The notes beneath the pieces are model-generated. The model worked only from the letters and a program-made list of their open reading frames with translations. It searched no databases and was not told where the DNA came from. Positions 6,754 through 52,665 of a DNA stretch of 64,000 bases are shown piece after piece; positions within the stretch are counted from its first letter, which is position 1; every line of letters begins with the position of its first letter. Origin of the DNA: an uncultured Bacilli bacterium. Lineage in GTDB: Bacteria > Bacillota_I > Bacilli_A > RFN20 > CAG-449. A program made the translations under genes and the position numbers. Location of the stretch: positions 1-64,000 of the forward strand of contig CALVJL010000005.1 in the NCBI GenBank assembly GCA_944332075.1, given 5' to 3'.

Positions 6754-6829
6754 GGACGCTTAGCTCAGCAGGGAGAGCGTTTCCTTCACACGGAAGAGGT
6801 CGTGGGTTCGAACCCCGCAGCGTCCACCA
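6754..6829 (+). tRNA. tRNA-Val (CAC)
   Basis: A 76-nt cloverleaf with encoded CCA. The acceptor GGACGCT pairs with AGCGTCC. The anticodon loop TTCACAC gives CAC on a TTTCC/GGAAG stem. The T loop is GTTCGAACC. A -10-like TATTAT lies at 6737-6742. Confidence 0.95.
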
Positions 6830-6841
6830 TTTCTGACGAAC

Positions 6842-6876
6842 ACCTATAATGAATAAACATTATAGGTTCTTTTTTT
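6842..6876 (+). terminator. Terminator of tRNA-Val
   Basis: A perfect 10-bp stem ACCTATAATG/CATTATAGGT with loop AATAAA, then TCT7. It resembles the hairpins behind tRNA-Arg and tRNA-Pro. Confidence 0.85.
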
Positions 6877-7220
6877 ACCAAATCTTACCAATTCGTGCTC
6901 ACTATGTCGTATCCTAAAATTTTATGGTCCTGTCATGGCCATCGAAAATAGTCAAAAATACCCCTAAAAGTTCGAACCACCGCAATACGCACACCGCAAT
7001 AGTACAACGGGCTCGAACATTCGCAAATTATAAATATAAATAAGGATATATGGGGGAAGCATTGTTAATCGCATAGGTTAGTCATTAAAAGTTAACGTTT
7101 ATCAAAAATTTTTGTTTTAGTCGAAAAATTAGCCAAAACCTTGGCTGAATCTAATTTATATGTACCAAACAGTCATAAATTATCGATATTGAAGAAACTT
7201 AAAAGTTAAAATGTATACTA
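6877..7220. other. Gene-free accessory segment with tRNA-like and direct repeats
   Basis: No plausible gene is seen here. At 6970-6997 there is a degenerate echo of the tRNA-Val 3' end (GTTCGAACC, CCGCA, ACG, CACC), 164 nt after the matching site in the tRNA. The 10-mer CACCGCAATA is repeated at 6978-6987 and 6992-7001. Base composition is less AT-rich around 6890-7025 than in the flanks. This could be an old integration scar beside the tRNA gene, but no integrase is present. Confidence 0.35.
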
Positions 7221-7253
7221 TTTTCTGGTTGTTTTCTGGTTGTTTTCTGGTTG
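7221..7253 (+). repeat. Three tandem 11-bp repeats in the AlbA_2 regulator promoter
   Basis: TTTTCTGGTTG occurs three times without change (7221-7231, 7232-7242, 7243-7253). The array overlaps the -35 box and spacer of the probable promoter at 7240-7268, as an operator would. The same unit occurs on the other strand within the downstream gene (8389-8422). Confidence 0.9.
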
Positions 7254-7268
7254 TGGTAGAGCTATAAT
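7240..7268 (+). promoter_or_regulatory. Probable promoter of the AlbA_2 regulator, overlapped by repeats
   Basis: TTGTTT (7240-7245), 17 nt, TATAAT (7263-7268). The -35 box lies inside the tandem repeat array. A second weaker -10 (TATACT, 7214-7219) sits just upstream of the array. Confidence 0.55.
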
Positions 7269-7289
7269 AATTAGCGAGGTGATATTGAG

Positions 7290-8609
7290 ATGCTTATCGA
7301 TGAAAATGACAAATTAGAATATAAAGAAAAAGTTTCAAATTCTTTACCAAAAGAGATTGTTTCGTTCTTAAACTCTGAAGGAGGAACAATATTAATTGGT
7401 GTAAGCAAAAATAAAAATCTTGTTGGTATTATTAATATCGATGAAACTATGCGAGAAATCTCGGATATCATAACCGATCAAATTTCACCACGTTGCATTT
7501 CTTTTGTTAAACAATTTCATGAGATAATAGATGGGAAAGATATTATTAAAATTGAAATCAAAAAAGGCAACCAGTTATTTTATGTAAAGAAATATGGTTT
7601 ATCAGAAATGGGGTGCTATATAAGAATAGGATCTTCTTGCAAAAGTTTAATGCCAGAAGAAATAAAAGAAAGATTTATCAAGTCGTTATCAAATTTTACA
7701 ACGAATATTGTTGATATTCCTTCTAGAAAAAATAATCTGACATTCCAAATTTTAAAAAACTATTTATTGTCGAATAATAACCATATTTCAGACGATACTT
7801 TTTTAGAAAACTATCATTTGCTAACAAAGGATGGACATTTTAACTATTTAGCAGAACTTTTGGCTGATAAAAATGACATTGTTATAAATGTTGCAACATT
7901 TGCATCCTCGGATAAAACGAAATATTTAAGAAGAGAAGAATTTGGTGGGAAATGTTTGCTACTGGCAATGGAACAGGCGAAAAATTATGTGAATTCAATT
8001 AATCAAACATTTGTAGATGTTACAACAACACCGCGAAAAGAAAGAAAAATGTTTGATACTGAGGCGTTTGAACAAGCGTGGATCAACGCATGTGTACACA
8101 ATAAATGGAGCGAAAGCAATCATCCGGGTATATATGTTTATAGTAATCGCTTAGAAATTGAATCGTTTGGTGGAATACCTAGCGTTTTAACCAAGGAACA
8201 ATTTCTGCGTGGCAAAAGCGAACCTGTAAATAAACAACTATTTGATATTTTTAGAGCGTGTAATTTTGCTGAAGAAAGTGGCCATGGTGTCCCTTCTGTT
8301 GTTAAAGTTTATGGTGAGGATGCATATATCTTTTCTGAATATTTCATCGATGTAGTAATCCCGTTTAATAGAGAAGGTTTTGATAAAACAACCAGAAAAA
8401 CAACCACAATACAACCAGAAAACATAGAAGAGGAAATAATTCAATTAATTAAAAATAATGAAAAGATTTCTAGAAAAGATATAGCTATTGTTTTGCATAA
8501 AACAGAGGGAAGCATTAGACACCATTTAAAAAAATTACAAGAAAAAAAGATTATCAAGCATTCAGGACCAGACAAAGGTGGATACTGGGAAATAATCAAA
8601 TCAAAATAA
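7290..8609 (+). CDS. AlbA_2 / HATPase / winged-helix regulator (RecG-like 'AAA_4' family)
   Basis: A 439-aa DNA-binding protein of the family often annotated as ATP-binding or putative transcriptional regulator. Residues ~1-125 match the AlbA_2 (Schlafen-like) domain: LEYKEKV, EIVSFLNSEGGTILIGV, CYIRIGSS. Residues ~250-350 match the HATPase_c_4 domain: AWINACVHNKW, EIESFGGIPS, NFAEESGHGVP. A Thr/Lys-rich linker (~366-378) precedes a C-terminal winged helix (~380-435, SRKDIAIVLHKTEGSIRHHLKKLQEK). The linker is encoded by inverted copies of the promoter repeats. The start has a GAGGTGAT site. It stands alone, with no obvious partner genes. Autoregulation is inferred from the repeats; the true role of this family is unclear. 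Confidence 0.8.
   Translation: MLIDENDKLEYKEKVSNSLPKEIVSFLNSEGGTILIGVSKNKNLVGIINIDETMREISDIITDQISPRCISFVKQFHEIIDGKDIIKIEIKKGNQLFYVKKYGLSEMGCYIRIGSSCKSLMPEEIKERFIKSLSNFTTNIVDIPSRKNNLTFQILKNYLLSNNNHISDDTFLENYHLLTKDGHFNYLAELLADKNDIVINVATFASSDKTKYLRREEFGGKCLLLAMEQAKNYVNSINQTFVDVTTTPRKERKMFDTEAFEQAWINACVHNKWSESNHPGIYVYSNRLEIESFGGIPSVLTKEQFLRGKSEPVNKQLFDIFRACNFAEESGHGVPSVVKVYGEDAYIFSEYFIDVVIPFNREGFDKTTRKTTTIQPENIEEEIIQLIKNNEKISRKDIAIVLHKTEGSIRHHLKKLQEKKIIKHSGPDKGGYWEIIKSK
8389..8422 (-). repeat. Inverted copies of the promoter 11-mer inside the coding region
   Basis: Read on the minus strand, three units lie in tandem: TTTTCTGGTTG (8412-8422), a degenerate TATTGTGGTTG (8401-8411, 9 of 11 bases) and TTTTTCTGGTTG (8389-8400, one extra T). 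They encode the linker KTTRKTTTIQPEN of the regulator. The array as a whole is an inverted repeat of 7221-7253. Confidence 0.9.
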
Positions 8610-8701
8610 GAACAGAAGGCTTTTGCCGAAACATTAAAGGCGTTCGCTTATTGATTTCGAGGGCATTTAAGGCGTTTTCCAAGCACATTTAAATAAAACA
8701 G

Positions 8702-49823: not shown

Positions 49824-52665
49824 TCTACAATCAATAATTAAAGAAATATTCATCGCAATATTAATTTTACTTATTCCGAGCATCATGGTTATTTTCTTAT
49901 TTTATAACCATGATTTTTATCCTTTTAATGAAAACGGATTAACAATGTTAATGATTGATGCCCAAAGCGAATATGTGGCTTATTTTCGTTATTTAAAGGC
50001 TATTTTAGTTAATGATCAATCACTTGCTTATACTTTAGGAAAAGCTTTCGGCGGAAATTTCATGTCGATATACGCATTTTATTTAGCATCCCCGTTAAAT
50101 TTATTAGTCGCTTTTGTTAATGATAAAGATATTCCGGGATTTATGTTAATTATAGGGATTGTTAAAATGATTTTAAGCTCGGTGAGTATGTATTTACTTT
50201 TAAGATTTAAAACCGGACATGCTAAAGTTGGTTACTTAATGTTTGCTTGTGGATATGGACTATGCGCGTATTCGTTTATGTATCTTTCAAATATTATGTG
50301 GCTTGACGGAGTCATGATTTTGCCGTTAGTAGTTCTTGGGTTAGAGCGGTTAACAGAAAATAAGACGCGGTGGCTTTATCCTTTAGCACTTATGTACGCG
50401 CTGATTTGCTCTTGGTATATCGGAGCATTTATTTGCATGTTTAGCGTGCTTTTTATGGCTTTTAAAGTCATCAGCAGCTATGGCGAATACAAAAAAGACT
50501 TACATTTAAAAAGCGATAAATTTCCTTGGCAAAAACTAGTAGGACGATTCATTACTTATTCGTTAATCGGCGGTCTTTTATCTTCGCCGGTTTGGTCATC
50601 AGCATTTATTCATTTTGGTGGAACAAAGGCGAGCGGATTTTCTTTTTCTTATTCTCCTTTTTCCTTTGATACTTTGGCAATGTTATTGCAGGGATTTTTT
50701 GAAAATAGTTATTCTGCAAGTGAGATTAAGATATACGATGGGTATGCGAATATGTTTACTTCAATCTCTTTACTCACTTTTGTCGTTTTATATTTTTTCA
50801 ACCGTCATTATTCTAGGCAAGAACGCTTCTCTGCTTTAGGATTATTACTTATTTATCTTTTAGCGGTTTTAAATTATGGACTATATGTAATTATGCATGG
50901 TGGAAAACCACCTACGTGGTTCCCGACGCGCTTTTCCTTTATCATTTCCTTTATGGTTTGCTATTTTGGAGGCAAACAATATGATCAGATGGATAAAACG
51001 CGTTTAAGCGATTATTTAGCTCCACTTTCTTTAACCGTTATAGCTTTAATCGTTATTTTTAATCAACCGATTAATGATAAGGGTGAGATGTATGATTTTT
51101 CTTTAATTAGCTTTGCAATTTTTGCTTCAACATTACTGCTTTTATTTATAAATAGTTTAATTACAAATAAATCTAATTCAAAAGCAAAATTTGTTACACC
51201 GGTTATAACTATTGCTATTACTGCATTGAGTTTAATCTCGACTTATCGCGGCGATGATAATATTTTAAAAAGCAATATTGAAAGCAATGAATATCAAAAA
51301 TACCAAACTTATTTAAAAGATGATGAGTTCCAAACAGTTGTTGATGAAGTAAAAGCGTTAGATGTTAATAACGCTTATAGAATGGAAAACACCTTTAATA
51401 GGCCAGGTAATTATAATCAAATCGATAATGACCCTTTATTTTATGACTATAACGGGATTTCTCATTTCTCATCGTGCGAATTAGCTGATGTGATGTCTTA
51501 TATGGGAAAACTTGGATTTCATGATAATGGATTCTTTGAAGGATATGATGGCGGATCGACATTAGCAGCGAATTCTTTTTTAGGGATTCGTTATCTTATT
51601 GATGATAAGGATGATTATTCAGTTAATAAACCACATTTTTTAACCTCGATAGATGATATTACCAGCCAACTTAGTTCTGAGAATTTAAAGATGAGTTACC
51701 GCGATATTTCTGTTTATGAAAATCAATATGCTTTACCTTTAGGTTTTAGCGTTTTATCTAACTCTGCGACTTTTCTCGGAGACGGGTATTATATTGGTGA
51801 TAATATTTATTGGTATGATCATTTTGAGTATCAAAACTCTTTATACCGCGCGATAACAAATCAAGTAAACGCAGATATTTTCTCACCTCTTGATTACGAT
51901 ATTTCGTATAGTTCAGGAGTAGAGGATGTCACTTCATCACATCAAGAATATCTTCATCCAGGTGAACGTTATTATAACCTTAAACCTAATGCTCAGATAA
52001 CGATTACTTTTGAAGTTCCAGAAGAAGTATATTCACTTGGTGAAGATGAATATAATTTATATTTTGCTTTAAAAGATATGTATAACGATGTTTTACAAAT
52101 CAGAATGGACGGAAGAAATTATGAGATGACTTCCTATTGGCATCGCGGGATTAGATCTTTTGAGGATAATAGCCGTCATTATCATACTTTAATTCTTCGT
52201 AATAAAAGCGGTTATGAATTAACCAACTTTAGAGTTCAACCAGAAATATATTATGAAAACGTTGATGTTTTAAGAAAGTACGCGGAATCAATTAATCAAA
52301 GTTCTCTATTTGATGCATCATTTTCTTATCAATTACAAAGCTTAATTTTAAGCGGTAAATTTAATAAGGTAGAAGGGTTAAATGAGTTTTTATTTACTTT
52401 GCCATATGAAGATGGAATGCAGATTTATATAGATGGTAAGAAAATGAATACATATGTGCGTTTTAATATCTTCTCTGCCTGCGATATTTCATCGCTTGAA
52501 GAAGGTGAACACATGGTTAAAATTGTTTATACCGAAAAAGGTATTATCTATGGATCATTGTTTGCTTCTTTAGCTTTAGAACTGCTTTTGGCTTTATATT
52601 TTTCACCTTTATTCACTTATAAAAAAAGACAATTCCCATTAGATGAAGTGCGCATATATAAATAA
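49798..52665 (+). CDS. YfhO family membrane glycosyltransferase
   Basis: About 955 aa. It has a GT-C-like multipass domain (roughly residues 10-460) with the first extracellular loop DAQSEYVAYFRYLKAI, LGKAFGGNF, and SNIMWLDGVMILPLVVLGLE, then a large extracytoplasmic beta-rich part (~470-920) and a last helix near the C-terminus. YfhO proteins transfer the sugar from the polyprenyl carrier made by a CsbB/GtlA-type GT2, here the overlapping upstream gene (26-nt overlap). The ATG at 49798 is preferred over the TTG at 49792. Confidence 0.88.
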   Translation: MEKSLTKNNLQSIIKEIFIAILILLIPSIMVIFLFYNHDFYPFNENGLTMLMIDAQSEYVAYFRYLKAILVNDQSLAYTLGKAFGGNFMSIYAFYLASPLNLLVAFVNDKDIPGFMLIIGIVKMILSSVSMYLLLRFKTGHAKVGYLMFACGYGLCAYSFMYLSNIMWLDGVMILPLVVLGLERLTENKTRWLYPLALMYALICSWYIGAFICMFSVLFMAFKVISSYGEYKKDLHLKSDKFPWQKLVGRFITYSLIGGLLSSPVWSSAFIHFGGTKASGFSFSYSPFSFDTLAMLLQGFFENSYSASEIKIYDGYANMFTSISLLTFVVLYFFNRHYSRQERFSALGLLLIYLLAVLNYGLYVIMHGGKPPTWFPTRFSFIISFMVCYFGGKQYDQMDKTRLSDYLAPLSLTVIALIVIFNQPINDKGEMYDFSLISFAIFASTLLLLFINSLITNKSNSKAKFVTPVITIAITALSLISTYRGDDNILKSNIESNEYQKYQTYLKDDEFQTVVDEVKALDVNNAYRMENTFNRPGNYNQIDNDPLFYDYNGISHFSSCELADVMSYMGKLGFHDNGFFEGYDGGSTLAANSFLGIRYLIDDKDDYSVNKPHFLTSIDDITSQLSSENLKMSYRDISVYENQYALPLGFSVLSNSATFLGDGYYIGDNIYWYDHFEYQNSLYRAITNQVNADIFSPLDYDISYSSGVEDVTSSHQEYLHPGERYYNLKPNAQITITFEVPEEVYSLGEDEYNLYFALKDMYNDVLQIRMDGRNYEMTSYWHRGIRSFEDNSRHYHTLILRNKSGYELTNFRVQPEIYYENVDVLRKYAESINQSSLFDASFSYQLQSLILSGKFNKVEGLNEFLFTLPYEDGMQIYIDGKKMNTYVRFNIFSACDISSLEEGEHMVKIVYTEKGIIYGSLFASLALELLLALYFSPLFTYKKRQFPLDEVRIYK

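Follow-up and report, generated by a model that had tools for sequence, protein, structure and literature searches.

A putative promoter operator repeated in the linker codons of AlbA_2/HATPase_c_4/winged-helix regulator genes

C.Kpn2I is an autoregulator whose site inside its own coding region acts as a roadblock to transcription elongation, and the protein also represses a neighbouring promoter (PMC6237814). It offers a precedent for a roadblock within the gene of an autoregulator, but it is a small C-protein, and the abstract makes no mention of a tandem array in a linker between domains (PMC6237814). ZNF274 recognises at ZNF genes a motif that is the DNA encoding the linker and part of a finger of its own protein family, although this system is eukaryotic and works in trans on many family members (PMC2999557). 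NanR, a GntR-type bacterial repressor of sialic acid metabolism, binds cooperatively to a short operator of tandem direct repeats, (GGTATA)3, but no intragenic copy has been described (PMC8012715). The gene examined here lies in a 64-kb stretch of DNA (the window) and, like C.Kpn2I, has a sequence resembling a regulator site inside its own coding region. It differs from that system in that a tandem array in its linker codons repeats the array at its promoter, and the two change together across paralogues. In contrast to ZNF274, each gene of this family has a unit of its own, with no other clear genomic target where this was tested. No report of such a linker-operator arrangement was found in the open-access literature.

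The gene (7290-8609, forward strand) encodes a protein of 439 amino acids with an SLFN_AlbA_2 domain (residues 5-119, 7302-7646; Pfam, E 1.4e-19), an HATPase_c_4 domain (residues 278-343, 8121-8318; Pfam, E 8.7e-12) and a winged-helix DNA-binding domain (residues 379-423, 8424-8558; HTH_24, E 5.5e-6, and a fold match). With the first two domains above the curated cut-offs and a winged helix at the C-terminus, it belongs to the AlbA_2/HATPase_c_4/winged-helix (COG2865-like) regulators. The whole protein was not assigned to a family by NCBIfam or PADLOC. The top fold match is 3lmm, Schlafen structures come next, and the C-terminal part matches proteins of the winged-helix type. The 3lmm structure is that of DIP2311, a member of the AlbA_2/HATPase_c_4 family and the closest solved structure by both fold and sequence; we know of no DNA target for it. 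The predicted model has a mean pLDDT of 88.8, and its only segment below 50 is residues 367-373, within the stretch encoded by the linker array. This architecture sets the protein apart from the C-protein family of small regulators, although its mode of action may be similar. It is also not an iteron replicon protein, as it has no Rep domain and its gene is located in a chromosomal cassette next to a tRNA.

Three exact tandem copies of the 11-bp unit TTTTCTGGTTG, starting at 7221, 7232 and 7243 on the forward strand, make up the promoter array (7221-7253; sequence and tandem-repeat search), the proposed operator O1. The array contains the -35-like hexamer TTGTTT (7240-7245), which is separated by a 17-bp spacer from the -10 hexamer TATAAT (7263-7268), so that the repeats overlie the -35 and part of the spacer; a ribosome-binding site, GAGGTGA, follows at 7276-7282, all on the forward strand. 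No close co-directional neighbour lies behind the gene. The linker array is inverted relative to the promoter array, with its three units on the reverse strand: unit 1 (8389-8399) is exact and read as TTRK, unit 2 (8401-8411) matches at 9 of 11 positions, and unit 3 (8412-8422) is again exact and read in another frame as QPEN. The spacings are 12 and then 11 bp, which places the DNA-identical units 1 and 3 in different frames. Tandem Repeats Finder ranked these two arrays as the top-scoring ones in the window. Sites with at most one mismatch to TTTTCTGGTTG number 6 against 1.9 expected in the 64-kb window, a count attained in 0 of 100 shuffles, and the sole further one-mismatch site lies at 52237. 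When the gene was simulated with a Markov model, 0.2% of trials contained one exact copy and 0 of 20,000 contained two. A chance origin of the match between the arrays was ruled out by these shuffles, by other gene windows and by control segments. The preliminary description had reported three perfect copies over the -35 and spacer, three opposite-strand copies in the linker codons (two exact, one 9 of 11) and a match very unlikely to be fortuitous, and on all three points our analysis agrees.

The same description had proposed comparing linker repeats with the promoter of the same gene in homologues. Relatives were drawn from whole genomes, mostly of Bacilli with some Clostridia, and from plasmid and phage records, which held few distant relatives and added six to the pool; a search of viral contigs with a single-protein query found no relatives. 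For each gene, 200 nt upstream and the linker DNA were taken, every promoter was scored against every linker in both orientations, and a match was called at p1 <= 0.02, p2 <= 0.03 and a score of at least 26. The threshold and the search lengths were slightly adjusted as the set grew, and the result was strong at every stage. Linker DNA matched the gene's own promoter in 40 of 232 testable genes, belonging to 16 protein clusters and carrying about 14 unrelated unit sequences; four of the 40 (L319, L228, L267 and L211) are marginal or of low complexity and may be chance matches. Wherever repeats were detectable in both promoter and linker (14 genes), the two matched. Across 99 cluster representatives the own-pair scores summed to 2068 against 1709 +/- 31 for shuffled pairs, and none of 10,000 pair shuffles exceeded 1843. 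A linker score of at least 31 was obtained with 36 of 232 promoters but with 0 of 116 segments at -600 to -400, 0 of 232 at +300 to +500 and 4 of 223 after the stop codon. When the whole locus was searched, a match of at least 32 outside the linker was present in 39 genes and fell between -200 and +30 of the start in 32 of them, where 8% would be expected. The comparison was thus strongly positive, own pairs clearly exceeding shuffled ones. Matches were rare among the Clostridia relatives, and cross-matches between the promoters and linkers of different genes revealed no clear regulatory network.

Repeats were also found on one side alone. Promoter repeats had no linker match in 48 of the 232 genes. 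Linkers were repetitive in 91 of 232, and in 64 genes linker repeats had no counterpart in the promoter, which indicates that repetitive linkers arise for other reasons too. The suggestion that linker DNA of this family generally serves as operator was therefore too broad: a match is seen in 40 of the 232 genes, and linkers of the TTQK type mostly lack a match to their own promoter. Linkers with a repeat unit that could not be detected in their own promoter include those of L012, L014, L011 and L015 (GTVN) and of L010 and L045 (TTQE/TTQK); synonymous constraint was absent from the GTVN class and present in TTQE.

Close homologues of the window protein (73-100% identical) nearly all keep TTTTCTGGTTG at both sites, and diverged paralogues have other units, yet each matches itself. 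The second gene of L036 has TATCTACCAATT, which encodes VDKL, with an exact match of 33 nt in inverted orientation, and L133 has ACTGGTCGGTTT, encoding PTSK, with an inverted exact match of 34 nt. The unit of L067, ATGTCGGTGTAA (VGVN), is in direct orientation, as is that of L022/L024, where GGCGTAATAA is paired with GGCGCAATAA (GAIS), while in L091 TTATCCCCCACT (VGDK) is inverted. In L043, 59% identical to the window protein, the promoter has TTTTCTGGCTG, and GGCTG also occurs in two linker units. L008, a 74% identical relative, has the same promoter array as the window gene and no linker array. The putative operator is found more widely in promoters than in linkers. Very strong promoter repeats of 10-11 bp without a linker copy were seen in L030, L117, L152 and L175. 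The close paralogues L059, L035 and L068 have four, three and two copies of NDTE, respectively, and linker length is thus unstable.

The units appear to be confined largely to the genes that carry them. In genome-wide pattern searches allowing up to two mismatches, the window-type array was restricted in G000 and G094 to its own promoter and linker, and in other carriers it was likewise confined to the regulator gene except for one orphan promoter array (G008:C7:2407). This orphan, of TTTTCTGGTTG type and located around position 1408 of L326, has no regulator gene behind it and is probably a decayed copy. In G104 the VDKL-type unit had no site besides promoter and linker, and G091 added to these a single three-mismatch site; the PTSK-type unit was restricted to promoter and linker in G038. 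In four genomes (G000, G094, G104 and G038) with three different units, then, the array is present only at its own promoter and linker.

Constraint on the linker codons was examined by synonymous recoding, in which the linker protein was fixed and codons were drawn from the gene's own usage. In most strong cases the real score was reached by only 0-6 of 300 recodings. Among ten homologues of the window gene, the longest stretch of unchanged DNA anywhere in the gene is ACAACCAGA (8411-8419), the core of linker unit 3, although only 24 of 243 codons with an invariant amino acid are also invariant as codons. Pooled over nine classes, 94 of 122 linker codons were invariant compared with 1298 of 2725 elsewhere (odds ratio 3.7), and synonymous codons were more invariant in the linker in eight of the nine, though tandem slippage can homogenise codons and may inflate the apparent constraint. 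No such effect was seen in the GTVN class, whose linkers lack a promoter match. Constraint at the protein level alone was considered and ruled out by the recoding and by the reading of one unit in two frames.

The arrays are inverted relative to each other in some classes and direct in several others. In most classes the coding strand of the array gives a stop-free hydrophilic frame, while the opposite strand would give hydrophobic residues or stops in most frames; GAIS, VGVN and VDKL are less clear in this respect. The promoter period is mostly 11-12 bp and the linker period is 12 bp, the multiple of three nearest a helical turn, so the coding copy holds to about one helical turn within the codon rule. 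The promoter array lies 1-24 bp upstream of the -10 in most classes, while in L191, L195, L199 and the VGNK class it is near the start codon and might have an additional effect at the RNA level. Together, orientation and spacing favour a double-stranded site under coding constraint, as judged from the sequences, over RNA pairing or inversion arms.

The regulator gene is the cargo of a 1.86-kb cassette (6830-8687, forward strand, from the tRNA 3' end to the presumed native terminator) that starts at the base after tRNA-Val(cac) (6754-6829, forward strand, with encoded CCA) and has its own terminator hairpin. At its left end a hairpin and T-run (6842-6867) stand in for the tRNA terminator, and its conserved right end (8626-8687) finishes in GGCGTTTTCCAAGCACA, both on the forward strand. 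Cassette loci comprise the window one, L032, L034, L046 and L328-L353; the left end was detected in 36 and the right end in 21 of 196 related genomes, and the same ends occur in other genomes behind Arg, His, Thr, Ser, Leu, Ala, Lys and Pro tRNAs. Each of the 34 tRNAs identified upstream of a family gene is oriented toward that gene. The cassette is 99.7% identical over about 1.87 kb to a segment in a genome from another family, with different flanks. The same ends also flank single genes for AAA_14/DUF4143 proteins (L338, L342, L381) and Fic proteins (L341, L349, L372), and tandem cassettes behind one tRNA, the right end of one abutting the left end of the next, occur in L033, L361, L379, L365, L372 and L378. 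Genes or gene fragments for large serine recombinases lie beside the same left end (L350:3-1442, L331:462-1442, G051:C27:27269-29228), as genes in G051 and as a fragment in G099, so such enzymes could plausibly mobilise the cassettes in trans. Little beyond CA is common to the junctions, which would suit a two-base core.

We think it probable, from sequence comparison, that the window gene encodes a private autorepressor with an operator at its promoter and a second, intragenic operator in its linker codons. The gene product would repress its own transcription through this private site: protein bound at O1, over the -35 and spacer, would keep RNA polymerase off. The units, about one helical turn apart, would most likely be recognised by the C-terminal winged helix. 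The linker-coding DNA would form the second array (O2), oriented such that the codons still specify a hydrophilic linker. Binding of the same protein there would reinforce repression, whether as a block to polymerase elongating through the gene or through a bridge to O1, about 1.15 kb away. We infer both the binding by the gene's own product and the repression: an array over the -35 and spacer sits where a repressor would be expected to bind, a winged helix is present in the protein and no other clear copy of the site occurs in the genomes tested, which would make autorepression the most economical reading. L008, with no linker array, and the 48 genes with promoter repeats only suggest that O2 would enhance repression and not be required for it. 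Of the two-site looping operator proposed in the preliminary description, the two-site reading is supported by the homologue comparison; the loop and the roadblock are about equally likely.

A reading in which only the promoter array works as an operator, and the linker copy is operator DNA copied into a tolerant, disordered segment where it is harmless or serves as a protein-level repeat, appears rather unlikely, even though repetitive linkers mostly lack a promoter match, repeat number varies among close proteins (NDTE in L059, L035 and L068) and L008 is missing the linker array altogether. It does not readily account for a DNA identity that outlasts protein divergence, with unit 3 as the longest invariant run in ten homologues, nor for the same DNA read in two frames, the synonymous constraint in eight of nine classes and the recurrence of matches in 16 clusters with different units. 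The location of the arrays in a cassette filled by one gene, about 390 bp from its left and 265 bp from its right end, would suit subterminal sites of a single-gene mobile element, used by the encoded protein for transposition or recombination. The ends also flank unrelated genes (AAA_14/DUF4143, Fic), however, and hence work without the regulator protein, two genomes have genes or fragments of large serine recombinases beside this left end, and some classes have direct arrays; the locus therefore does not have the organisation of a transposon with subterminal transposase sites, and we regard this explanation as highly improbable.

The preliminary description had also named pairing of the 5' leader with the coding RNA and arms for recombination, neither of which fits the data. 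Control at the RNA level, by pairing of the 5' leader with the linker-coding RNA or by binding of the protein to repeats in its own mRNA, would draw on the complementarity of arrays in the inverted classes and on the few classes in which the array is downstream of the promoter. We give it a very slight chance, since the promoter array is untranscribed in the window and most classes, being upstream of the -10, and direct arrays are unable to pair. A role of the inverted arrays as arms that flip the 1.1-kb segment, as in phase variation, is scarcely credible: the window arrangement is indeed inverted, but it is shared by all ten of the aligned close homologues, with no inverted allele and hence only one orientation of an invertible switch, and several classes have direct arrays.

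Returning to the private autorepressor with two operators, we give an even chance to the further proposal that the operator dictates the amino acid sequence of the interdomain linker, the protein's own binding site doubling as linker codons, and that promoter operator, linker operator and binding specificity co-evolve and give each paralogue private self-repression. If so, each horizontally moving paralogue would have a self-repression circuit that needs nothing outside the gene; because the gene is cassette cargo, it can spread horizontally and a self-contained circuit would be useful to it. Intragenic operators are known singly, while here one family repeats the design with differing sequences, and the linker would neatly illustrate how regulatory DNA can shape part of a protein. 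Each operator could be read off twice independently, once from the promoter and once from the linker, allowing binding sites to be predicted from sequence for many uncharacterised regulators. The arrangement would also account for linker repeats of 12 bp (four residues) in some members of a widespread and poorly understood family.
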